The position numbers were made by a program, and so were the translations under genes. A DNA stretch of 37,743 nucleotides from Desulfobulbaceae bacterium (GTDB lineage Bacteria > Desulfobacterota > Desulfobulbia > Desulfobulbales > Desulfocapsaceae), in assembly GCA_008933635.1 (NCBI GenBank), contig WBUQ01000027.1:1-37743 (forward strand), in the 5' to 3' direction. Shown here piece by piece: positions 14,031-26,466 of the stretch; position 1 is the first letter of the stretch, and every line of letters starts with the position of its first letter. A model generated the notes under the pieces. The model saw only the letters and a list, made by a program, of their open reading frames with translations, did not search any database and was not told where the DNA came from.

Positions 14031-14066
14031 AAGGGGGCATGCCTGAGCAGGGATGCCCCCTTTTTT
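14031..14066 (+). terminator. Rho-independent terminator after adk
   Basis: GGGGGCAT and ATGCCCCC form an 8-bp GC-rich stem, extended by flanking AA/TT, around a 12-base loop and followed by TTTTTT (14061-14066). It sits about 50 bases after the adk stop. It also shows that in-frame start codons of the next gene inside this hairpin are unlikely to be used. Confidence 0.9.
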
Positions 14067-14137
14067 GCTCGGTTTTGAATACGAACGGTGGATGGATAGT
14101 GGAACACGCAATCCAAGCCTTGCGATCTGAGTCGGAT

Positions 14138-15700
14138 ATGGAAGAACACACGAAGAAGCACGGACCGGGAAAGGTCTATCTGGTTGGAGCGGGGCCGGGA
14201 GATCCGGGGCTGATTACGGTCCGGGGAAAGCAGCTGCTCGAGCGGGCGGAGGTCGTTATCTATGACTACCTGGCGAGCACGCGGCTGCTCAAGCATATCC
14301 CCAAGGATGCCGAACTGGTCTATGCCGGCAAGAAGGGCGGGGTGCAGCACACCCATACCCAGGAAGAGATCAACCAGATGCTGGTGGATTATGCCATGCA
14401 GGGGAAAATGGTCGTCCGCTTGAAAGGCGGCGATCCGTTCATTTTCGGGCGCGGCGGAGAGGAGGTGCAGCAACTGGCGGCATCGGGCATCCCTTTCGAA
14501 GTCGTCCCTGGTGTCACCTCGGCAACCGCAGCTGCGACCTATGCCGGAATTCCGATAACCCATCGCGATTACACGGCTTCGGTGGCTTTCCTCACCGGTC
14601 ATGAGGATCCTACCAAGGAAAACTCCAACATCGACTGGGCCCGTCTTGCGACCGGGGCAGGAACCCTGGTCGTCTATATGGGCATCAAGAATCTCCCGTT
14701 CATCGTCGACAACCTGATCAAATACGGGCGCGATCCGAAGACCCCTGTCGCTGTTGTCCGCTGGGCTTCCACCCCGGAGCAGGAGTCGGTGGTGGCGACG
14801 CTCGACGAGATTGTCGATGCGGTCAGGGAAAAGGGAATCAAGCCACCGTCACTGATCATCGTCGGCGAGGTGGTCAAACTTCGTGACGCCATCGACTGGT
14901 TCGAGAAGCGGCCGTTGTTCGGCAGGCGGATCATCGTCACCCGGACCCGCGAGCAGGCCAGCGATCTGGTCGCCGGTCTCGAGGAGGCCGGGGCCAACTG
15001 CCTCGAGTATTCAACGATCAATATCCAGCCGACCGATTCATATGATATCCTTGACAGCGAACTGGACCGGCTCAACGAGTACCACTGGATTGTCTTCACC
15101 TCGCTCAATGGTGTCGATTATTTCTTCCGCCGGCTGTATCAACGGGGAATGGATGCCCGTAACCTCAAGGGGCCGGGGATTGCCGTGGTGGGCAAGAGCA
15201 CTGCGGAATTGCTCATGAAATACGGGATCAGGGCTGACCTCGTCCCTGCCGCCTATACCGGGGAGGGACTGGCGGAGAGTCTGCTCGATCAGGGAGTGGA
15301 GGGGCGGAACATCCTCATTCCGCGCGCTGAACACAGCCGTGAGATACTGCCGGAGACGTTGCGCGGTGCCGGTGCCCAGGTGACCATCGCCCCGGTGTAC
15401 AAAAATGTCCCGCCGCAGGGGCGTAAAGATGCCCTGCGGGCGGAACTCGAGACCGGCAAGGTCGACATGGTGACCTTCACCAGCTCCTCAACTGTGAAGA
15501 ATTTTCTGACGATGGTCGATGCGGCCGACCAGCAGGAACTCGAGAAACTCCTTCAAGGCGTCAAGATAGCCGCGATCGGGCCGATAACGGCGAAGACAGT
15601 CACCGATAACGGGCTGAAGGTCGACGTCCAGCCGGCGACGTATACCATTCCGGCCCTGATCAAGGAAATTCTGGACTATTACGCCGCGGCGGGGCAGTAA
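14138..15700 (+). CDS. cobA: Uroporphyrinogen-III C-methyltransferase / uroporphyrinogen-III synthase fusion (CobA-HemD)
   Basis: This bifunctional 520-residue enzyme makes uroporphyrinogen III and methylates it to precorrin-2, the precursor of siroheme and cobalamin. Residues 1-250 are the SAM-dependent methyltransferase: VYLVGAGPGDPGLITVRG, VVRLKGGDPFIFGRGGEE and VVPGVTSATAAATYAGIPITHR are diagnostic. Residues 260-515 are a HemD domain with IIVTRTREQAS, WIVFTSLNGVDYF and the late VTFTSSSTVKNF. Fusions of this order occur in Clostridia and Desulfobacterota. Siroheme is needed by dissimilatory sulfite reductase, fitting dsrC in the same window. The start is uncertain: an in-frame GTG at 14099 is also possible and neither has a strong ribosome-binding site. 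Confidence 0.95.
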   Translation: MEEHTKKHGPGKVYLVGAGPGDPGLITVRGKQLLERAEVVIYDYLASTRLLKHIPKDAELVYAGKKGGVQHTHTQEEINQMLVDYAMQGKMVVRLKGGDPFIFGRGGEEVQQLAASGIPFEVVPGVTSATAAATYAGIPITHRDYTASVAFLTGHEDPTKENSNIDWARLATGAGTLVVYMGIKNLPFIVDNLIKYGRDPKTPVAVVRWASTPEQESVVATLDEIVDAVREKGIKPPSLIIVGEVVKLRDAIDWFEKRPLFGRRIIVTRTREQASDLVAGLEEAGANCLEYSTINIQPTDSYDILDSELDRLNEYHWIVFTSLNGVDYFFRRLYQRGMDARNLKGPGIAVVGKSTAELLMKYGIRADLVPAAYTGEGLAESLLDQGVEGRNILIPRAEHSREILPETLRGAGAQVTIAPVYKNVPPQGRKDALRAELETGKVDMVTFTSSSTVKNFLTMVDAADQQELEKLLQGVKIAAIGPITAKTVTDNGLKVDVQPATYTIPALIKEILDYYAAAGQ

Positions 15701-16204: not shown

Positions 16205-19200
16205 TCAGTTCAATCGGATCAGGTCAAGGAGCTCCTCGGAGCTCATCTTGGCGCTGATGTCGCTTCCTTCCAGCAGGCTGCCGGCCAGGTCGCGTTTTTC
16301 CTGGTGCAGTCTGACAATCTTTTCCTCAATTGAATTCTTGCAGACCAGCCGGTAGATTGTCACCGGCCGGGTCTGGCCGATACGGTGGGCACGGTCGGAG
16401 GCCTGGTCTTCGATGGCGGGATTCCACCAGGGATCCATATGGATGACATAGTCGGCGGCGGTCAAATTGAGACCGAGGCCGCCGGCTTTCAGGCTGATCA
16501 GGAACAGGTCGCCCTGGCCCGCCTGAAAGGCCTCCACCCGCTCCTGCCGCTGCCGGGAACTGGTACTCCCGTCCAGGTACTGGTACGAAATCTTTTCCTT
16601 GTCGAGATGCTCCCTGATGATCTGGAGATGGCCGATGAACTGGCTGAACACCAGTACCTTGTGGCGGCTTTCGATCAGTTCCTCGATAAGCTCCGAAAAG
16701 ACCTTCAGCTTTGAACTGACAATCCGGCTGTTCGGATCGAGAAGTCGCGGGCTGCAGCAGGCCTGACGCAATTTCATGATCTCGGTCAGTATCTGCAGGT
16801 GCCTTTTCTTTTTGTCCTTGTTGTTATCCAGGATCTCGAGCGCATTCTGGCGCAGGGCCTCATAGAAATGAGACTCGTACTCGCTCATTTCAACTTCGAG
16901 CGTCATTTCCGTGCGCGAGGGCAGCTCATCGAGGACCTCCGATTTGATGCGACGGAGGATGAAGGGCCGTATCAGTTTTTTCAGTTTCAGGCGCGCTTCC
17001 CGATCCTGGTACCGTTCGATCGGGATGGCAAAACGCTCATTGAAGCTGTTGACCGATCCAAGGAAGCCCGGGTTGATGAAATTGAAGAGGTTCCACAGTT
17101 CGCCCAGGTGATTCTCGATCGGGGTGCCGGTGGTGATCAGTTTGAATTCTGCCTTGAGGGACATCGCCGCCTTCGAGCGTTTGGTAGCAGCGTTTTTGAT
17201 AGCCTGGGCTTCGTCGAGGATAACGGCCTGCCAGGAGACGGTGGAGAGCAGATCCATTTCCTGCTGGAGCATGGTGTAGGTGGTGATCACCAGATCAAAC
17301 GGTCCGAGTTCGCTGATCACGACTGAACGGTCCTTGCTGTTCAGGGTCCTGATCTGCAGGGTCGGGGTAAAACGGGTGACCTCGGATTGCCAGTTGGTGG
17401 AAACCGATGTCGGAGCTACCACCAGGGAAGGCCCGTCGGCGGCGAAGCGGAGGATGATGGCCAGCGATTGCAGGGTCTTGCCGAGGCCCATATCATCGGC
17501 CAGGCATCCCCCGACGCCCCATTGGGCCAGACGGGCCAGCCAGTAGAAGCCTTCCTTCTGATAGTCGCGCAGCTCGGCCTGCAGGGTCGAAGGCACTTCC
17601 GGCTGAAAATCGCCACTGGCGCGGATTTTCTGCAACAACCGCTTCCAGCCGCTATCGACGCTGGAAGCGGTATGATTGATCAGGTCTTCCAGCGGCAGGG
17701 CGGCGAGAGGATGCAGTAGCAGTTCCTCGTCATCGAATCCGTTCGCGTAGATATTCAGGTCCTCGAGGCGCTTTTTGAATTCCTGGGTGAGGGCAACGAA
17801 CTGTCCGGATCCGATCTCGACGAAGCGGCCGGGGGAGGACTTGATCGTTGCCAGCAGATCCTTGAGGCGGATGACATGATCCTGGTCGAGCCGCAGGCTG
17901 CCGTCTATGGCCAGCCAGTTCTGGCGGTTTGTCCGGACCTTGAGATTGAGATTCTCAAACGATGCCTGGTAGGCGATGGACAGTTTTTCTCCCTCCGGCC
18001 ACTCGATTACCACCTTGTCCCGGATAGCCTGCAGTTCAATCAGGGCCTGGAGGCAGTCCTCCGGGTCCTGCAGGTGCCACTCCCTGTCCGTTTCACGCTC
18101 CATATCGATTGCGAGGTCAAGGATGGGACAGAGCTCTTCGACATCACGGGCTTTTTCCTCCTCCAGAGCAAGGTTTCGCTTCGTCTGCATCCTCCGGCCG
18201 TGGATCTCGGTCATGATGTTCTCGACTCCCTGGCCGGGTTTGAGATAGTGCATGCCGTCGGGGAAGGGCTTGACGAACATCTCGAGCCGGAAGCCGGTGC
18301 CGTAGGGGAGGAGGTGCATATATATGGTCGAATCTGCTTCGACGAACTCGATGTCGCTCTCTCTTCCAGCGGCCCGATCCCCGGCTATGGCGGAGTGAAC
18401 AGTCATGAACGATGAGCTGTTGCCGATCAGTTTGATGACATGCTCACTTGCCGATATCGGCACCAGCAGTCCTTCCTTGCCAATCTGTCGCGCAATTTCA
18501 CGGTGCTTGTCGCTGATGCTGATAATCCTGATGCGGCTGGGTGTTTCCTGAAATACCGAATAGTTATCGGCACCGATCGGCTGAGCGAAACGGATCAGCA
18601 GGTTCTGGCCCTTTTCCTCGATCAGCAGTTCAGGCTCGCCGGCGATGAATTCGACCGGTGTCGACGGTGATTTGGCGAGAAACAGCTGCGGATGTCCGAT
18701 CATTGCCATCAGGGCCTTTTCCTGGCTGAACTGGAAGCTGACACTGTTCGTCTCAGGATTGTGCAGGCGTTTGATCGCGGCGCAGATCTTGCGGTCCTTG
18801 GGAGTAAGGTAGCTGAGTTTGCCCTGGTACAGCCTGGCCAGTGAGATCGGACGCCCTTTTCCCCATCCGCCGGGGAGGCTCAGTTTCTGCTCTCGCGGCA
18901 TGATCGAGATACTGTCGCCATCCAAATCGATCATCCAGACTAACCGGGTCTTTTCCTGTGATGCGGCATCCTCGTCAGTCGAGGTAATGTTTATCAGCGC
19001 CTGAAGGGCACGTTTCCATGGTTCTTCCGGTTCAAAGAGCGGCAGGATTCTGCTTAAGCCGATCTGTGCCCGCAGTTCCTCATAGTCAGTCCGGAAAGGT
19101 GCCGGGTCGGCGTGCAGTTTCGCGAGAATTTCGCAGTAGATGGCGGCAAACAGGGAGTAGCCGCTTTCTCTGGCCCTGGTGTAGCCGTCAATGATTTCCT

Positions 19201-20365
19201 TCTCGAGAATCGGCTGGGTGCTGCTGGTCAGCCAATATTGACAGAGTGAGGCAAAGGCCAGGGTGAGACTGTGGCTGGGGGCATTTTCCGGCAGGCTGAT
19301 CTCTGTATGGCTGGTGCTGCGATCGATCCGTGAATGGACGAGTGTCGCCAGATAGGAGTATGCCGTGTTTTCCGGGGCAGAGTGGAAGAGGGAGAGGGTG
19401 ACGGCAATCTGTTCTGCTATGGTGTGGTAATCCTGTTCTTCAGAGGCGTGGAGTCTTGCCAGGATGTAAAACAGCCCGGTCAGACCGAAAAACGCCACCC
19501 GCTCGTCGTCCTGCAGGGCCTGGAGGAGGTGCAGGTCCTGCGAGTATTGCTCCAGAGACTCGGCGAGTCTGCCCTGGAGAAAGAGCAGGGTTCCCCATGC
19601 GCCGGTCCCCCTGAAAGAATCCTCGCTGTTGCGGAGCAGCATTTCAGTGCGTTGAAAGTCCCCCTGAAGCAGATACTGGGTGAAAAGCAGACGCTTGAAT
19701 GGCAGCTGTTCGTCCGGGCTGAGGGCGGCTGATTGCTGCTCTGCCTCAAGAAATGCATGAATTTCAGGGAAGGCCGTCAAGGATGCCTGGGCATGGCGGA
19801 GTATGGCATTCAGGAGGTAGAATCGGAAGGAGAGGGGCAGGCTGCCAAACCAGTCGGGATCAAAAGGTTCTGTGATAACCTGGACGAGGGGAGGTGCCGA
19901 GCAGACAAGGTCTCGGCACTGACTCGAGATGAAGGACGCCGCTTCTTCAATAAGGTCGAAATCCTGGGAATAGATACCGATCCTCAGTTCCCGCATCGCC
20001 CGCCAGCATCGGGTGGACCATTTGCCGTAGTAGTAGGATGCCGGTGCCTCATCGCGGATGATGCTGGCATACGTGGAGAAAGTGCCTTCGGCGATGGTCT
20101 TTCTGGCGAAGACTTCCACCAGTTGGGGAACGACCCTGTGTTCAGCGGTGATGAAACCGAGCTGCTCGAGTTTGGCGAGGTAGTGGTTGAGATTGACGGT
20201 TGTTGGCCGGTTCCCCCGTGGATTGCTGAGGTCGAGCCGGCGCAGGCTGTTGACGAGAAGAGTCGTATGGGCAGGCTCGTAGATGATCGAAAGGAGGAGG
20301 AGAAGGGTTTGCTCGAAGTGGGATAGGCGGTTGAAATGATCGAGGAGGTCGGTCTCTTTCGGCAT
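16205..20365 (-). CDS. Large SNF2/Rad54-family DNA-dependent ATPase
   Basis: This is a 1386-residue Swi2/Snf2 superfamily-2 ATPase. The C-terminal half holds the motor: motif I LADDMGLGKTLQ (about residue 958), Ia VVAPTSVSTNW, II ILDEAQAIKNA (about 1050), III TGTPIENHLGELW, then VLVFSQFIGHL, LISLKAGGLGLNLT and motif VI QASDRAHRIGQTRPV (about 1327). The N-terminal 850 residues are largely helical, Leu-rich and without a SWIM zinc finger or nuclease motif; a winged-helix-like start (residues 1-90) is possible. Bacterial relatives are linked to nucleoprotein remodelling, RNA-polymerase recycling or DNA repair; the role here is unknown. It is a single gene with no methylase or defence partner adjacent. 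Confidence 0.92.
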   Translation of the reverse strand: MPKETDLLDHFNRLSHFEQTLLLLLSIIYEPAHTTLLVNSLRRLDLSNPRGNRPTTVNLNHYLAKLEQLGFITAEHRVVPQLVEVFARKTIAEGTFSTYASIIRDEAPASYYYGKWSTRCWRAMRELRIGIYSQDFDLIEEAASFISSQCRDLVCSAPPLVQVITEPFDPDWFGSLPLSFRFYLLNAILRHAQASLTAFPEIHAFLEAEQQSAALSPDEQLPFKRLLFTQYLLQGDFQRTEMLLRNSEDSFRGTGAWGTLLFLQGRLAESLEQYSQDLHLLQALQDDERVAFFGLTGLFYILARLHASEEQDYHTIAEQIAVTLSLFHSAPENTAYSYLATLVHSRIDRSTSHTEISLPENAPSHSLTLAFASLCQYWLTSSTQPILEKEIIDGYTRARESGYSLFAAIYCEILAKLHADPAPFRTDYEELRAQIGLSRILPLFEPEEPWKRALQALINITSTDEDAASQEKTRLVWMIDLDGDSISIMPREQKLSLPGGWGKGRPISLARLYQGKLSYLTPKDRKICAAIKRLHNPETNSVSFQFSQEKALMAMIGHPQLFLAKSPSTPVEFIAGEPELLIEEKGQNLLIRFAQPIGADNYSVFQETPSRIRIISISDKHREIARQIGKEGLLVPISASEHVIKLIGNSSSFMTVHSAIAGDRAAGRESDIEFVEADSTIYMHLLPYGTGFRLEMFVKPFPDGMHYLKPGQGVENIMTEIHGRRMQTKRNLALEEEKARDVEELCPILDLAIDMERETDREWHLQDPEDCLQALIELQAIRDKVVIEWPEGEKLSIAYQASFENLNLKVRTNRQNWLAIDGSLRLDQDHVIRLKDLLATIKSSPGRFVEIGSGQFVALTQEFKKRLEDLNIYANGFDDEELLLHPLAALPLEDLINHTASSVDSGWKRLLQKIRASGDFQPEVPSTLQAELRDYQKEGFYWLARLAQWGVGGCLADDMGLGKTLQSLAIILRFAADGPSLVVAPTSVSTNWQSEVTRFTPTLQIRTLNSKDRSVVISELGPFDLVITTYTMLQQEMDLLSTVSWQAVILDEAQAIKNAATKRSKAAMSLKAEFKLITTGTPIENHLGELWNLFNFINPGFLGSVNSFNERFAIPIERYQDREARLKLKKLIRPFILRRIKSEVLDELPSRTEMTLEVEMSEYESHFYEALRQNALEILDNNKDKKKRHLQILTEIMKLRQACCSPRLLDPNSRIVSSKLKVFSELIEELIESRHKVLVFSQFIGHLQIIREHLDKEKISYQYLDGSTSSRQRQERVEAFQAGQGDLFLISLKAGGLGLNLTAADYVIHMDPWWNPAIEDQASDRAHRIGQTRPVTIYRLVCKNSIEEKIVRLHQEKRDLAGSLLEGSDISAKMSSEELLDLIRLN

Positions 20366-20755
20366 GATTGCGCTGTTTCTCAGGTAACGTCGATGCCGGC
20401 GACCAGGTGAAGGGGGATTCCCTCTGCCGGGGCGGGCGCAAAGATCAACAAGGTACTATATCACCGGAGCACCAGCAAGAAAAAGAAAAACTGCAGATGT
20501 TCTGCCGGAGCTGATTCGGTTTGCAGTTCCACAGGGTGTCAACGATCAGCGACGTTACCGAAGGAGACGTTGCCATCATGGATGAAGCAGGTGAATAATT
20601 GAGAAAAAATATTGAAAATCAATTCCTTCGTCCTTGTCAAATGTGATAATGACAGTTGGCAAAACGTCAGAGAATATTGCTGTGAACTTGACACCTTTTC
20701 AGAAATATCTGAAACTGATTCTGCGAAGACTGAGAGATGCTCGCAAAGGAGGAAC
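20366..20755. other. AT-richer intergenic region between SNF2 and recombinase-like genes
   Basis: This 390-bp divergent gap is noticeably more AT-rich than its surroundings in its right half. It contains a TTGACA hexamer at 20688-20693 (plus) and, four bases later, a 7-bp palindrome (20697-20714). A TATAGT hexamer on the minus strand near 20457-20462 could be a -10 box for the SNF2 gene. No gene is supported: an in-frame extension of the downstream gene to 20612 lacks a ribosome-binding site. Confidence 0.45.
20697..20714. promoter_or_regulatory. Candidate operator palindrome upstream of recombinase-like gene
   Basis: TTTCAGA and TCTGAAA are perfect 7-bp inverted arms around AATA. They lie immediately after a TTGACA box (20688-20693) and about 40 bases before the ATG at 20756, where a repressor would block RNA polymerase. 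The protein bound is unknown; autoregulation by the downstream DNA-binding protein is a guess. Confidence 0.4.
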
Positions 20756-21547
20756 ATGGCCATAATCGGATATATTTTCCTGAACCCGGAAAAGGCTGGT
20801 CGGATGTCACTTGAGGATCAGCAGCGGGCAATCATGGCCTATGGACAGGAAGTGGGCCGACAGGTGATGGAGATCTATGTTGAGCAGGCAGCCTCGATCA
20901 GGCAGGCCTTGATCAACCGGGCGGAAGGCGGGAAAATGATCGAGAGGGTCAGGGGGGGCGATACGCTGGTTGTGGCCCGGGCGGCGTATGTCCTCGGTTC
21001 CAGCCGGGAGGCAAGCAGATTGCTCGCCGATCTTCGGCTGAAGAAGGTATCGATGTATTGCCTCGACCTGGCCGAGGATATCACCTGTGATCGCGAGCGC
21101 AGACTTGCTGTCTCCGATGGAGGCGCGGTTCTGATCCAGAAACTCCTGGCCGCATTGTCTCTCTGCGACAGCAGCAGGCATGGGGAGGCGATAAGGGAGG
21201 CGAAAAAATACCGGAAACAGGCCGGTAAATACCTGGGGGGGCCGGTTCCATTTGGCTGGCGGGTCGATGGCGCTGGCCGTCTCATGCAGAATCCGGAGCA
21301 GCAGCGGGTCATCAGGGAGATGAAGCAGATGCGGGAGGACCGCTGGTCGTTTCGGGCTATCTCCGGAATAGTGCGGGAGAGGCATGGTCTGAGTCTATCC
21401 CATGAGGGGATCAGGAGGATTCTGGCAACGGAACAGAGCCGACGCGATGAAAAAAGACAACGGCTTCCTGGCGCCCAAAGCAGTTCAGAGCAGGTGTTGC
21501 AACGGCGCGTTGAGGAGGACCGAAGGAGAGATCGGAAGAAGAGATGA
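20756..21547 (+). CDS. Serine recombinase-like DNA-binding protein lacking catalytic residues
   Basis: The ATG at 20756 follows AAAGGAGGAAC, a near-perfect ribosome-binding site, giving 263 residues. Residues 1-135 follow the resolvase fold (SLEDQQRAIMAYG; RGGDTLVVARAAYVLG) and residues 150-245 the Recombinase DNA-binding domain (GKYLGGPVPFGWRVD...WSFRAISGIV), with a basic Arg-rich tail. The start MAIIGYIFLN aligns with gamma-delta resolvase so that Arg8 is Phe and the nucleophile Ser10 is Asn; the Asp67-Arg68...Arg71 motif is also lost (AAYVLGSS). It therefore cannot cleave DNA by the known mechanism and is probably a domesticated DNA-binding regulator. No attachment sites, transposon ends or cargo genes were seen beside it. 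Confidence 0.85.
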   Translation: MAIIGYIFLNPEKAGRMSLEDQQRAIMAYGQEVGRQVMEIYVEQAASIRQALINRAEGGKMIERVRGGDTLVVARAAYVLGSSREASRLLADLRLKKVSMYCLDLAEDITCDRERRLAVSDGGAVLIQKLLAALSLCDSSRHGEAIREAKKYRKQAGKYLGGPVPFGWRVDGAGRLMQNPEQQRVIREMKQMREDRWSFRAISGIVRERHGLSLSHEGIRRILATEQSRRDEKRQRLPGAQSSSEQVLQRRVEEDRRRDRKKR

Positions 21548-21636: not shown

Positions 21637-23532
21637 TTAAAGGCTCTTGTGGCGGGAAATCTCAGCCTGATCCTCGAGGTTGCGGATCCATGCCATCAAG
21701 AGCTGCTGCTGGGTGTATTGAATAAGTGCTGTGCGATATTGCTGGATTGTCTTCTCATCGGCCTTTTCGGTTGGAAGCTTCCGCTTATCAAAGACAAAGA
21801 CATAGAATGAATTGTCAAGCTGGCCGATTTCTTTTGGCAGCGGCGATGATTTTGACAGCTGAAAGGCCTGTTCAAACAGACCGGCGGGAAAGACCGAGGC
21901 CTGCTGCGGATCGTTGCGGTTGAGATCTCCGGAATTTTCAATTTTGAAGGCGGTTCCGGCAATTGCCTGCTCGAGGGTTTTCCCTTTGCGCACCTGCTCG
22001 AGTATGGCTGCAGCCTTGGAGCGTGCCATTTCCTGTGCTTTACTGGAGATATAATCAGCCCGAGCCTTTTCGGCAACCGCAGTCAGTTGCGGGATCACCG
22101 GCGCCTTGTAATCCAGGGCGAAGAGGATCGCGTATCCGGTATCGGTTTCGATGAGCGAACTCAGCTCACCTTTATTGAGCTTGAATGCGGCCTCCAGCAG
22201 TTTCTGGTTGAGGCCGATCTCCGCCGGCGGTTGCTTCTGAGTGAAAAATCCTGTTTCCTTCAGGGTGATGTCGGGATGCGCAGCGATATAATTCTTCAGG
22301 CTGCCAGCCTTGATAATCCCTTCATAGGCCTGATTGGCAAGCTGGAAGGCCATCTGCTTGGCCTCCCTGTTCCTGATGGTCCCGGTGATGGTATCGCGCA
22401 CCTCCTGCAATGGTCGGGTTGCTGCCGGTTTTATTTCCTCGAGTTTGATTATGTGGTAGCCGAAACTCGTCTTGACGACGTCGCTGATTTCGCCGGGCTG
22501 CATGGAAAAGACCTTGGCGTCAAATTCCGGGACCATGCTTCCCTGCTGAAAGAATCCGAGATCCCCGCCGTTGCCCTTGCTTGGATCCTCGGAATATTGT
22601 TCGGCGGCAGCAGCAAAGTCACTGTTTTTCTTTACAATGTTCAGAATTTCGGTGGCTTTCAGCTGTTGCTCCCGGTGTCGCTCAGCACTGTCCTCCTCTC
22701 GTGCCGCCAGCAGGATATGGCGCGCCCGCCGCTGTTCGGGAACCTGAAAACTCGCGAGATTTTCCTGGTAATACGTTTTGACCTGGTTGTCGTCGACTGT
22801 AATTTTCTTTTCAAGATCCTCAAAGGTATAAGGCAGGTACTGCAGCTTGATTTCAGGATCCGAGCGGTAGTTTTCCTTTACCGTTTCAAACCATTTCTGC
22901 AGATCCTGTTGGTCGACCTTGATAGCATCTTTGAAGGAGTCGGTATCGATCTTGATAAAACGGACTGAAACCGTCTCCCGACCCTGATTGTAGAGATCTT
23001 CAATTTCCGCATCTGTGGCGACAGTCACGAATTTGCTGATTTCCTGAACCGTTCGGTCTGAAAGCATATCGTATCGCAGCGAGTCCTCGAAGCTTGTGGG
23101 GGTGAAGCGGTTGGCCGATAACAGGGATTGATAGCGATCCATACTGAACTGGCCGTTGTCCTGAAATTGCGGCATCGCGGTAATCTTGCTGCGGATTTCT
23201 TCAGCGCTGACCCGGATACCCATTTCCCTGGCACCCTGGCGGAGGAGGGATGTTTGAATGAGCTGCTCGATAACCTGTTGCTTCACTCCGAGGGATTCGT
23301 CCAGGCCTTTTGGCAGGGTACCGCCGAACTGACTGCTGAGTCTATTGATCGCCTGGTCATAGGCTTCCTGGAATTGCTGGAACGATATTTCATCGTCGTT
23401 GACGGTCAGAGCGACTTCCCGAGTATTCATCATATTGGTGCCGACTCCCCAGAAGATGAAGACGAGAGCAATGATGACGACGATGATCTGAATGAAGGTT
23501 GACTGGGCTTTGTTGCGAAGGACCTGGAGCAT
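21637..23532 (-). CDS. ppiD: Periplasmic chaperone/peptidyl-prolyl isomerase PpiD (SurA_N / parvulin)
   Basis: A membrane-anchored periplasmic foldase of 631 residues. The ATG at 23532 starts MLQVLRNKAQST, the usual PpiD beginning, followed by a single transmembrane helix (about residues 13-32, IIVVIIALVFIFWGVG). The SurA_N-like chaperone part covers about residues 35-260. A parvulin domain at about 265-365 shows RARHILLAA, YSEDPSKGNGGDLGFF, FDAKVFSMQPGEISD and FGYHIIKLEE. A second parvulin-like region follows. It would assist folding of exported outer-membrane proteins at the Sec exit. A TTG-initiated extension to 23601 is possible but unlikely. It is a single gene, convergent with the recombinase-like gene. 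Confidence 0.93.
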   Translation of the reverse strand: MLQVLRNKAQSTFIQIIVVIIALVFIFWGVGTNMMNTREVALTVNDDEISFQQFQEAYDQAINRLSSQFGGTLPKGLDESLGVKQQVIEQLIQTSLLRQGAREMGIRVSAEEIRSKITAMPQFQDNGQFSMDRYQSLLSANRFTPTSFEDSLRYDMLSDRTVQEISKFVTVATDAEIEDLYNQGRETVSVRFIKIDTDSFKDAIKVDQQDLQKWFETVKENYRSDPEIKLQYLPYTFEDLEKKITVDDNQVKTYYQENLASFQVPEQRRARHILLAAREEDSAERHREQQLKATEILNIVKKNSDFAAAAEQYSEDPSKGNGGDLGFFQQGSMVPEFDAKVFSMQPGEISDVVKTSFGYHIIKLEEIKPAATRPLQEVRDTITGTIRNREAKQMAFQLANQAYEGIIKAGSLKNYIAAHPDITLKETGFFTQKQPPAEIGLNQKLLEAAFKLNKGELSSLIETDTGYAILFALDYKAPVIPQLTAVAEKARADYISSKAQEMARSKAAAILEQVRKGKTLEQAIAGTAFKIENSGDLNRNDPQQASVFPAGLFEQAFQLSKSSPLPKEIGQLDNSFYVFVFDKRKLPTEKADEKTIQQYRTALIQYTQQQLLMAWIRNLEDQAEISRHKSL

Positions 23533-24035
23533 GATAGCAGTGAGATAGCGGCCGGGCCGGTTGTGAAAGGATGAATGGGCGGGTGTATCCCTGAGTTTCA
23601 AGACAAGTTTTCATGGATGTACTCTTTCTTCCCCCTCCGTGCAAGGAAAAACGGGGTGGAGCGCTGTCTGTCGTTCCGTGGCGGAGGAGGGACGCGGTTG
23701 TGGCCGCTGCAGGGCAGGCGGAAAAATCGTCCGGCGCGAGAAAAAATGGACATATGCAAGAAATTCGGTAACTATGTGGCGGCGGTATCGATCATTGGCC
23801 ATGAGCGTTTCTTCCGATCCCGGTGGGACTCATGCACCGCATGCCATTGCTCGATGGCGGTTGCTGTGTCATTATAGCAGTAATTACATATAATTGAGTG
23901 GTGATGGAGGGAATGAATAAATGATTGTCCATTCACTTGACAAACTGTTATCCCTATAGTAATAAGGCCTAATTAGTTTTCAGCCGACTCAAACAACGGT
24001 GAGAGCCACAGAAAAATATTTAAGGAGGTTTTAAA
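23533..24035. other. Intergenic region between ppiD and dsrC
   Basis: This 503-bp divergent gap separates ppiD (minus) and dsrC (plus). The left two thirds are GC-rich with no supported gene; short open frames there lack ribosome-binding sites. The right third is AT-rich and holds the candidate dsrC promoter (23937-23965). Nothing else recognisable was found. Confidence 0.5.
23937..23965 (+). promoter_or_regulatory. Candidate sigma-70 promoter of dsrC
   Basis: A perfect TTGACA (23937-23942) is followed by a 17-bp spacer and TAATAA (23960-23965). The -10 box is imperfect; an overlapping TATAGT lies closer. The surrounding DNA is AT-rich and about 70-100 bp ahead of the dsrC start. Confidence 0.5.
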
Positions 24036-24455: not shown

Positions 24456-24731
24456 TCAGAAGATCATATTGGAAAAACGTCCATGCAGTTCTCTTAGTTC
24501 TTCTTCGCAACTGCCGCAGAAGAGGCGACTGCCTCCAGCTGACTGAATACTGGTATCTTCGACGGAAAAACTGCCATCAGGATTCTGGACGTAATGGGTC
24601 ACGATCACCGCATCCTCGCTGATCTCAAAAAATTCCAGATCGTTGCCGCAGTGAGGGCATTTGATTCTCGGGATGAAGGACATCTCGGTTGCCATCCTGG
24701 TGCCCTGTGGTTTGCGCGGGGTACTAGACAT
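24456..24731 (-). CDS. Small zinc-ribbon-like protein in bactofilin operon
   Basis: I do not recognise a named family. The 91-residue product has a CPHC pair near residue 25 and FCGSCEEEL near residue 72, spaced like a split zinc ribbon, with an acidic middle (FFEISEDAV, HYVQNPDGS). There is no signal peptide or membrane helix. Its ATG overlaps the end of the bactofilin gene by 8 bases, so translation is coupled and a role with bactofilin or the M23 peptidase is likely. A second in-frame ATG at 24695 is possible. It ends before the bidirectional terminator at 24387-24417. Confidence 0.7.
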   Translation of the reverse strand: MSSTPRKPQGTRMATEMSFIPRIKCPHCGNDLEFFEISEDAVIVTHYVQNPDGSFSVEDTSIQSAGGSRLFCGSCEEELRELHGRFSNMIF

Positions 24732-25176
24732 TGGCCTTATGCAGAATAGGTGTTTTTGCGGCTGTCGCTGGAACCGGGTTTGCCTTGTCTTCTATCTGAC
24801 GCAGATCCTTGGTGGCTGACTTTATTTCGCCGTCTATGGCAGCTCCAGGTTCAACCGTCAGGCTGGCCGCCTCAATCCTGCCATGGATGGAACAACTTTT
24901 GCGGGCGATCACGTTGCTGGCCTGGATATCGCCTTCTATGGTGCCAAAACAGTTGAAGGTGTTTGTTCTGATATTACCGTTGACTCTTCCAGTTTCGCTG
25001 AGAATGAGGTGTTCTCCGTCGATATTACCGTCGATGTGACCGTCGATACGGGCTTTCCCCTTGAAAGTGATTGTGCCGGTAATCGACATGCTCTTGTCGA
25101 TGAGAGAGGAAATGGCCTCGATATCAGACTTGCCGGCAAGCTGGTCAAGTTCGTCCTTTTTCGCAAATATGCTCAT
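24724..25176 (-). CDS. Bactofilin (polymer-forming cytoskeletal protein, DUF583)
   Basis: Bactofilins form nucleotide-independent filaments at the membrane that place cell-wall enzymes and shape the cell. The 150-residue product has a short N-terminal tail (1-25), the core beta-helix (about 28-125) with the repeating pattern ITGTITFKGKARIDG, HIDGNIDGEHL, GRVNGNIRTNT, GTIEGDIQA and SIHGRIEA, and a Pro/Ala/Lys tail. It begins one base after the stop of the M23 peptidase gene, an arrangement seen in many bacteria in which the peptidase is the bactofilin's partner. The small zinc-ribbon gene overlaps its end. Confidence 0.94.
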   Translation of the reverse strand: MSIFAKKDELDQLAGKSDIEAISSLIDKSMSITGTITFKGKARIDGHIDGNIDGEHLILSETGRVNGNIRTNTFNCFGTIEGDIQASNVIARKSCSIHGRIEAASLTVEPGAAIDGEIKSATKDLRQIEDKANPVPATAAKTPILHKANV

Positions 25177-25177
25177 A

Positions 25178-26140
25178 TCAGTTTTTTGCGGAATTGCGAG
25201 GGACCGGGAGTGACAGCCCGGCTACCTTCATCAGTTTTGCAGGGTTGATCGGTTTGCCGTGCAAGGTAACTTCGTAGTGCAGGTGGGGGCCGGTCGCTCT
25301 GCCGCTGCTGCCGACCGCACCAATTAACTGGCCTCGTTCGACTCTGTCACCCTTTTTGACCATGAAACGGTCGAGGTGGGCGAAACTGGATGCATATCCA
25401 TTGCCGTGATCAATCTGGACGAACTTCCCATAGTTGCCATTTGTCGTCGCGGTGGTAACCACGCCGGCCCCTGTCGCGAGAATCTTCTCTCCCTTGGCCG
25501 CCCGGAAATCTATGCCGGTATGAAAGGCTCCCTCATTGTTCATGGGATCCTGGCGAGAACCGAAATTGGACGAAATCGATCCTGGCACCGGTCTGCCCAG
25601 TGGCGTATAGCGAATGGTCTCTATATATTTGTCAGTGGTGAAAAGCAGGTCGTCATGTTGGCTCACCCCGCGCGAAATGAAAGGTCCGCCACTGTCCTTC
25701 CTGGCGAGTGAGCTCTTTCTGGTTTTGAGGCCGAGTTTGTCCATGACTTCTTTTATATGTTCACTTCGGTCATTGAGTTCGGTGACGGCCGTGGCGATGA
25801 TTGCCTCCTTCTCATCAGAGAATGAAGCTGCTTGTCGTGCCTTCGCCATTTGCAGGTTGGCGATCTCCAGGCTCATCTGGTGCTTGAGCTGCTCGGTGCT
25901 TTGTTGATGTCTGGCGAGGAGCTGGGTGCTGTGCTGCAGCTGTTGCCTGAGGCCGGCTAGCTCGCTTGCGAAATGCCGGTTCTTCGCAAACAGGCCGATG
26001 GTCAGTGAAGAAGAAAAAATCAGCCCGGAGAGGGCGACGAGGAGCAGGAGGGTGAGACCGAAAAAGCTTTTCTTATGGATGGGAAGACGGCGGGTTCTGC
26101 CGCTGTCACTGGTTATGATGAGGTAAAAATGTTCACTCAT
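25178..26140 (-). CDS. M23-family peptidoglycan endopeptidase, membrane-anchored
   Basis: A 320-residue LytM/M23 zinc metallopeptidase. The ATG at 26140 gives MSEHFYLIITSDSG, the usual start of bactofilin-linked members, with one transmembrane helix at about residues 26-48 (FFGLTLLLLVALSGL). A coiled coil covers about 55-125 (LRQQLQHSTQLL...LKHQMSLEIANLQ). The C-terminal domain has FHTGIDFRA (His and Asp ligands), SFAHLDRF and GPHLHYEV (HxH), so the zinc site is complete. It should cut peptide cross-links in the periplasm for localised wall remodelling directed by bactofilin. A start at 26176 is also possible. A promoter is predicted at 26245-26273. Confidence 0.92.
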   Translation of the reverse strand: MSEHFYLIITSDSGRTRRLPIHKKSFFGLTLLLLVALSGLIFSSSLTIGLFAKNRHFASELAGLRQQLQHSTQLLARHQQSTEQLKHQMSLEIANLQMAKARQAASFSDEKEAIIATAVTELNDRSEHIKEVMDKLGLKTRKSSLARKDSGGPFISRGVSQHDDLLFTTDKYIETIRYTPLGRPVPGSISSNFGSRQDPMNNEGAFHTGIDFRAAKGEKILATGAGVVTTATTNGNYGKFVQIDHGNGYASSFAHLDRFMVKKGDRVERGQLIGAVGSSGRATGPHLHYEVTLHGKPINPAKLMKVAGLSLPVPRNSAKN

Positions 26141-26466
26141 TCCACGTAAACCCTGTTGGTTATCCTTGATCCACATGAGAGCGTGCTGCTTGTGCAGCCG
26201 GTATCCTTCAGTGGAATCAAGATGTTCAAGCCAAAATTTGATAGTTTATACTCTTGACAAGTGATTTATTCAACCATAAAAGGACTCCTGCCCGGGGGGC
26301 GGTCGGATCGGTCGGTTCTCTGGTGCTTTTTCACTGCAATGGCTTCCTCACGTTGCCCCGGGTTGCTGTCGGCAGAGCAGCGATATGGCTCTTTCCGGAG
26401 CGAATGGCCGCGAGCTGCTGTATTTTTCCCTCGTTCCGGCACGACAGGAGGTGTTGAGATATTTCT
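26141..26466. other. Divergent region with overlapping promoters between M23 operon and uup
   Basis: In this 326-bp gap an AT-rich patch (26236-26285) holds a good minus-strand promoter and, overlapping it, a plus-strand TTGACA (26254-26259) followed 17 bp later by TAAAAG, a weak -10. No gene is supported in the remaining GC-rich part. Confidence 0.5.
26245..26273 (-). promoter_or_regulatory. Sigma-70 promoter of M23-bactofilin operon
   Basis: On the minus strand, TTGAAT (26268-26273), a 17-bp spacer and TATAAA (26245-26250, five of six consensus) are present, about 105 bases before the M23 start. It overlaps the plus-strand TTGACA at 26254, so the two directions may compete. Confidence 0.6.

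Follow-up and report, generated by a model that had tools for sequence, protein, structure and literature searches.

Resolvases are known both to cut DNA and to repress the genes that encode them, and the subsites of res in Tn3 and gamma-delta are unequal. In serine recombinases, three arginines (Arg8, Arg68 and Arg71) are the activators of the scissile phosphate; the residue numbers used below, Ser10 and Asp67 included, are those we take to be the gamma-delta ones. The large serine integrases (Bxb1, phiC31, A118) carry a zinc-ribbon with a coiled-coil after the recombinase domain. A mobile-element enzyme can also lose catalysis and become a regulator, as TnpB did in giving the phage-encoded TldR. 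TldR proteins are described as RNA-guided transcription factors (PMC13418256), and TnpR of Tn3 as binding res between tnpR and tnpA and autoregulating both (PMC7157771). Among the recruited recombinases covered by the available part of a review, the serine ones are DNA inverters and resolvases that cut (PMC8987985). A search of the open-licence literature with a few wordings found no description of a natural family of dead serine-recombinase regulators.

The gene considered here lies in a 37,743-base stretch of DNA from a Desulfobulbaceae bacterium, analysed as a whole and called the window. It occupies positions 20756..21547 of the forward strand, with an ATG at 20756 and a stop codon ending at 21547, and its intact frame encodes 263 amino acids, which the open reading frame list, Pfam and alignments together identify as a catalytically dead serine-recombinase homologue. 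A ribosome-binding site, AAAGGAGG, was read directly at 20745..20752 on the same strand. An earlier note, made from the sequence alone, had described a serine recombinase homologue that kept its frame, its ribosome-binding site and a Recombinase DNA-binding domain after losing every catalytic residue, and had suggested domestication rather than decay of a mobile element; the results below confirm the former and support the latter.

Domain architecture and loss of the active site

By descent the window protein is a member of the serine recombinase superfamily. The Pfam Resolvase N-terminal domain (PF00239) is matched at E 1.1e-9, with 39 bits against a cut-off of 23.3, and in an AlphaFold2 model (mean pLDDT 80.6, pTM 0.50) residues 1-142 (20756..21181, forward strand) take up the resolvase fold, superimposing on the serine-recombinase catalytic domain 3bvp with a Z of 16.0 (2.2 Å over 127 residues) and on 2rsl with a Z of 15.1. 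The recombinase-type DNA-binding domain that follows, residues 146-232 (21191..21451, forward strand), carries conserved GGPVPFGW and SHEGIRRIL motifs and matches the Bxb1 recombinase domain 9iu8 with a modest Z of 7.9 (2.4 Å over 86 residues) and 4kis with a Z of 6.9; at the sequence level the same part also resembles integrases, weakly (E 0.003-0.006), in agreement with the structural match. The matches confined to these residues are integrase recombinase domains, and 1gdt, which aligns over the full length at 11.7 Å rmsd, is not a clear domain match. The Pfam scan gave no separate Recombinase-domain match, only a sub-threshold HTH_32, and an NCBIfam scan of the protein returned only unrelated families far below their cut-offs. 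A charged tail (21455..21544, forward strand), largely of low model confidence and not conserved, extends the protein about 30 residues beyond the recombinase domain, where most members of its family end sooner.

The window protein has the catalytic-domain fold of Tn3/gamma-delta TnpR, as the match to 2rsl indicates, but appears to differ in its C-terminal DNA-binding domain and lacks the catalytic residues. With the large serine integrases it has in common the recombinase-domain fold and the weak sequence match, but it ends soon after that domain, has no zinc-ribbon or coiled-coil and again lacks the catalytic residues. Closer are the short plasmid recombinases of Gluconobacter, Methylobacterium and Vibrio, which are of the same size class and have the same catalytic fold motifs and a short recombinase domain; the protein of Gluconobacter oxydans 621H plasmid 5 (WP_011251597.1) shows 33.6% identity over 85% of the query. 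These recombinases are plasmid-borne and keep both G/SYxRVS and LDRxxR, whereas the Desulfobulbales family lacks both motifs, carries some nine extra residues inserted after about residue 105, and resides on the chromosome, for the most part at a single locus.

Where the closest intact relatives (the Gluconobacter, Methylobacterium and Vibrio plasmid proteins) read G/S-Y-x-R-V-S-T, the window protein reads GYIFLN, with Phe8 in place of Arg8 and Asn10 in place of Ser10; LDRxxR has become AAYVLG, with Ala77, Tyr78 and Gly81 in place of Asp67, Arg68 and Arg71. In a HMMER alignment to the TP901-1 integrase the first strand is displaced by two residues, with Tyr6 opposite the arginine and Phe8 opposite the serine, and both are still lost. 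Judged by these residues, the window protein fails the defining chemical test of a functional serine recombinase.

The same losses recur among its orthologues, and the intact orthologue that would have spoken against the earlier note was looked for among 43 aligned members and not found. Arg8, Arg68 and Arg71 are each present in 0 of the 43 aligned family members, while the relatives L183-L186 have all three. The Arg8 column holds Phe in 37 members, Tyr in four, and Leu and Val in one each; the Arg68 column holds Trp in 36, Phe in three, and Tyr, Met, Ala and Ser in one each; the Arg71 column holds Gly in 26, Ser in 11, Ala in four and Cys in two. Serine occurs in the Ser10 column of two of the 43 (L026, L080), without the arginines, and aspartate in the Asp67 column of two others (L081, L083), both of which also have an arginine one column past the Arg71 site. 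None of the 43 has a working catalytic residue set, and on this alignment the loss of the catalytic residues is fixed across the members examined. Tyr6, Glu43, Arg55 and Asp69, by contrast, are invariant in all 43.

Distribution, descent and selection

Of 38 related genomes searched, 13 have the gene, all drawn from the 25 that belong to the same family as the window; in two of the 13 (G018, G019) the copy is broken, and G164 holds a fragment. Across the class, 49 of 257 genomes match at E 0.001, 42 of them at E 1e-58 or better, and the named relatives with the gene include Desulfoprunum, Desulfofustis glycolicus DSM 9705, Desulfocapsa, Desulforhopalus and Desulfopila records. In a phylum sample of 395 genomes, 19 match at E 1e-6, with family-like scores only in the window genome (G000) and G009; the other 17 lie at E 5e-19 or weaker, and the eight of their loci that were aligned (L175-L182) keep the catalytic motifs. 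A contig search returned 38 loci, of which 30 belong to the family (the named loci) and eight (L045-L052, from Arthrobacter and kin) were dropped as ordinary integrases by name and score. All named loci but L028, 29 in total, entered the structure alignment together with the window. Many genomes lack the gene or hold a broken copy of it, so it is dispensable in some lineages.

The tree and codon alignment used 39 of the 43 members, the broken or cut-off L044, L012, L083 and L013 being left out; the tree also took in 13 of 14 relatives (without L181), all recombinases with intact motifs. Beside these the 39 dead members form one clade, supported at 100/100, on a stem of 1.25 changes per column. 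Under midpoint rooting its nearest neighbours are plasmid recombinases of Gluconobacter, Methylobacterium and Vibrio that keep the motifs, support being only 87/47 for the dead clade plus the Gluconobacter branch and 97/98 for the branch that takes in Methylobacterium.

Loss of the original activity has been followed by purifying selection. A codon model over 39 sequences and 230 codons gave an omega of 0.157, and by domain 0.163 for the dead catalytic domain and 0.137 for the DNA-binding domain; the dead domain is thus almost as constrained as the protein overall. In the eight closest pairs dN/dS was 0.09-0.23 (pS up to 0.609); the next six pairs listed gave 0.29-0.48 at dS above 1.25, near saturation, and no weight was put on them. 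The comparison with omega = 1 gave likelihoods of -24157 versus -22723, and since kappa was fixed at 2 as well it is not a clean one-parameter test. The low dN/dS among orthologues that the earlier note had called for is thus present, and the neutral drift that it set against domestication was looked for and not found.

The gene stands between a divergent neighbour, which we take to encode an SNF2-type helicase (16205..20365, reverse strand), and a convergent one, presumably for a PpiD/SurA-like peptidyl-prolyl isomerase (21637..23601, reverse strand), in conserved synteny with both. As far as the contigs reach, 26 of the 30 named loci have the SNF2 gene upstream of it, the ppiD-like gene downstream, or both, and the same gene order recurs at the broken copy of G018, in L091, and in G102 and G054, two genomes from a different family of the order. 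In gene-less genomes SNF2 was found in all 20 examined, and 18 of them show an empty SNF2-ppiD site with a gap of about 173-754 bases; the other two (G007, G013) gave no ppiD match within the stretch covered. Copies lie away from this locus in four of the named loci (L027, L038, L039, L043), in L073, in the outgroup member L082 and in the broken L085. L027, L038/L039, L043 and L073 belong to one sub-clade of genus g6 and lie in four different neighbourhoods, whose genes we presume to be for cobalamin biosynthesis, a nucleotidyltransferase, hslU and folC. With these exceptions the gene appears to have been inherited vertically at a conserved locus. Elsewhere in the window, a presumed bactofilin-like gene lies beside a presumed M23-peptidase-like gene (24724-26176), a pairing conserved in many related loci, and 14039-15700 holds a 553-amino-acid gene that we take to be a fused uroporphyrinogen-III methyltransferase and uroporphyrinogen-III synthase-like one.

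Tandem palindromes upstream of the gene

Upstream of the gene stands a tandem palindrome of the form TTGNCA-N3-TGNCAA, its second copy exactly 32 bp after the first. The two operator-like copies, at 20656..20670 and 20688..20702 on the forward strand, each match eight of the ten consensus positions, and no other pair in the 37,743 bases of the window scores as high (16/20, the next being 14). Upstream regions of the family were scored against a threshold of 16 of 20 matches in 42 of the 43 cases (L043 has too little upstream DNA), with a consensus derived from the same upstream sequences. At 32 bp, 12 of the 42 reach the threshold, whereas 200 shuffles gave 0.025 on average and never more than 1, other spacings at most five and the reversed pattern none of 42; the 12 strong cases span three genera (g1, g18, g6) and are not 12 independent events. 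In a scan of spacings from 16 to 60, the combined score peaks at 32 (z 16.5, 20 shuffles), and as it is also raised at every other spacing (z 3.0 to 11.6), only the excess at 32 is specific. At 31 bp the threshold is reached by L081, from another family, and by L027 and L038, and there is a third copy, in register, in G125 (L021). The remaining 30 of the 42 regions fall below threshold at 32 bp, or 27 when pairs at 31 bp are counted; they include groups g14 and g5, where the recognition-helix motif is nonetheless little changed. Desulfofustis glycolicus DSM 9705 likewise has no recognisable operator pair.

A weak sigma-70-like promoter match (9/12) at 20649..20678 on the forward strand has palindrome 1 in its spacer, and palindrome 2 begins 10 bases after it; a better match (10/12) is found further upstream, at 20570-20599, and does not touch either palindrome. 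The search found these two against a shuffle mean of 0.7, and they are consensus matches, in themselves no evidence of function.

A candidate autoregulator and its alternatives

With the cutting chemistry lost, the gene kept intact, mostly at one locus, and often paired sites upstream of it, the protein is probably a self-controlling DNA-binding regulator in a group of sulfur-cycling bacteria. It is the tandem palindromes in its own upstream region that point to a DNA-binding regulatory role. The account that we favour, and hold with moderate confidence, is that of a short serine recombinase, domesticated long ago, whose strand-cutting chemistry is entirely gone and which now serves as an autoregulating, sequence-specific DNA-binding protein. 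In its favour are the loss of the active site across the family, the purifying selection, the mostly fixed locus with its empty counterpart in gene-less genomes, and the tandem palindromes that go with the gene in part of the family. Against it stand the upstream regions below threshold, the origin of the strong cases in three genera and of the consensus in the same sequences, the scores raised at all spacings, the lack of a clear multi-gene regulon in the scans described below, the weakness of the promoter match at the palindromes, and the many genomes without an intact copy. The recombinase domain would bind each TTGNCA-N3-TGNCAA palindrome as a dimer. A distance of 32 bp is about three helical turns and would place two dimers on the same face of the DNA, where they could be joined as a tetramer, as the resolvase fold can form. 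The bound dimers would repress the promoter at the protein's own gene and so set its level; palindrome 2 lies about where a transcript from the weak promoter match would begin, and dimers bound there could block RNA polymerase. The operators would then take the role of the res site of a resolvase, with evenly spaced 32-bp tandem sites here where the subsites of Tn3 res are unequal. The protein may have further targets. The simplest reading, by analogy with resolvases, would be that binding and repression were kept and cutting was lost.

The earlier note had also allowed for an architectural protein, and a domesticated DNA binder that organises the chromosome, in the manner of the non-cutting accessory-site subunits of resolvases, instead of regulating a promoter seems to us unlikely. 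The best Foldseek matches include the serine recombinase-DNA regulatory complex 2r0q and Tn3 resolvase-site III complexes, the same-face spacing of 32 bp would suit tetramer building, and single palindromes are in excess in seven gene-bearing genomes (G000, G002, G003, G021, G124, G125, G102), with 51 against 11 for the reversed pattern (44 against 11 without the seven matches at the gene itself), and not clearly so in three gene-less ones (G001, G004, G012; 11 against 8). However, of the 40 single-site loci fetched (out of 44 non-self matches), 31 fall within frames that a simple caller marks as open, and for coding sequence the reversed pattern is not a perfect control. The tandem sites, moreover, are concentrated upstream of the gene rather than spread over the genome: in a scan of 20 genomes, the gene's own pair is the best of the genome in nine of 13 gene-bearing genomes and tied for best in G145. 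The best pair lies elsewhere in G005, G143 and G102, in the last of which the spacing at the gene is 31. Among the seven gene-less genomes scanned, G015 has a one-mismatch pair and G006 a two-mismatch pair elsewhere, and at three mismatches several genomes give no more pairs than the reversed-pattern control does (two against nine in G102, three against four in G131). A TTGTCAGT-type tandem repeat at G143:C1:2003719-2003765 matches the pair pattern with zero mismatches by repetition alone.

No clear multi-gene regulon emerged from the single-palindrome scan (10 genomes) or the tandem-pair scan (20 genomes), and since most single sites lie inside open frames we claim none; a small regulon may be served through single palindromes. 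In genus g18, a TTGTCAATCTGGCAA palindrome near position 1000 of L204/L213 is conserved between divergent genes, which we take to be lysine-2,3-aminomutase-like and malic-enzyme-like, and is a possible second target. A TTGTCAAGCTGTCAA palindrome near position 1000 of L203/L210 is conserved in two g18 genomes upstream of one gene, presumably for a branched-chain amino-acid-binding-like protein. The flanks are conserved at both places, and we therefore claim neither as a target.

That the tandem palindromes belong to some other transcription factor, which controls the gene while the protein itself does something else, we consider improbable to a slightly greater degree. The sites are missing from several clades in which the gene and its recognition helix are retained, as such a division of labour would allow. 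But no pair above 14/20 was found at any of the 18 empty loci, the pair at the gene is the best in most gene-bearing genomes, as noted above, and degenerate operator pairs accompany the relocated copies L027, L038 and L073, though not L039. A factor with its single target at this gene is also less likely than self-binding.

That the protein is a regulatory partner of an active serine recombinase of the same cell, damping or steering it, is very improbable. Nine of the 10 gene-bearing genomes searched with PF00239 have at least one other Resolvase-domain match, but in G002, which is 93% complete, this protein is the only one, and the additional matches differ from genome to genome in both size and number. 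Least credible of all, despite the broken or fragmentary copies in G018, G019 and G164 and its absence from other genomes, is a decaying mobile-element remnant without function, given the omega of 0.157, the four residues invariant in 43 of 43, and intact frames at one locus across two families; the domestication that the earlier note proposed agrees with this selection, with the single clade and with the mostly conserved locus.

The autoregulator account can be carried further, though only tentatively and with rather more doubt than confidence. A plasmid resolvase and its resolution site might have turned into a self-contained repressor-operator pair, with new conserved aromatics (Phe8 and the Trp at the Arg68 position) replacing the active site and a non-cutting tetramer sitting on tandem same-face operators. 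Gene and sites would then form a small cassette, found in four chromosomal contexts within one sub-clade, which may control a few further promoters via single palindromes.

The dead recombinase family would be an exapted mobile-element protein, and as such of a known kind. Compared with TldR the proteins are unrelated, and guidance is by RNA there and, as we propose, by palindromes here. If this account is true, the family separates in nature the two jobs of a resolvase, with cutting gone and regulation kept, and the separation is apparently older than the split of two families of the order, provided that the shared locus reflects common descent. The dead-enzyme sequences, their active sister sequences and a predicted operator form a natural set in which the path from recombinase to regulator is directly testable.
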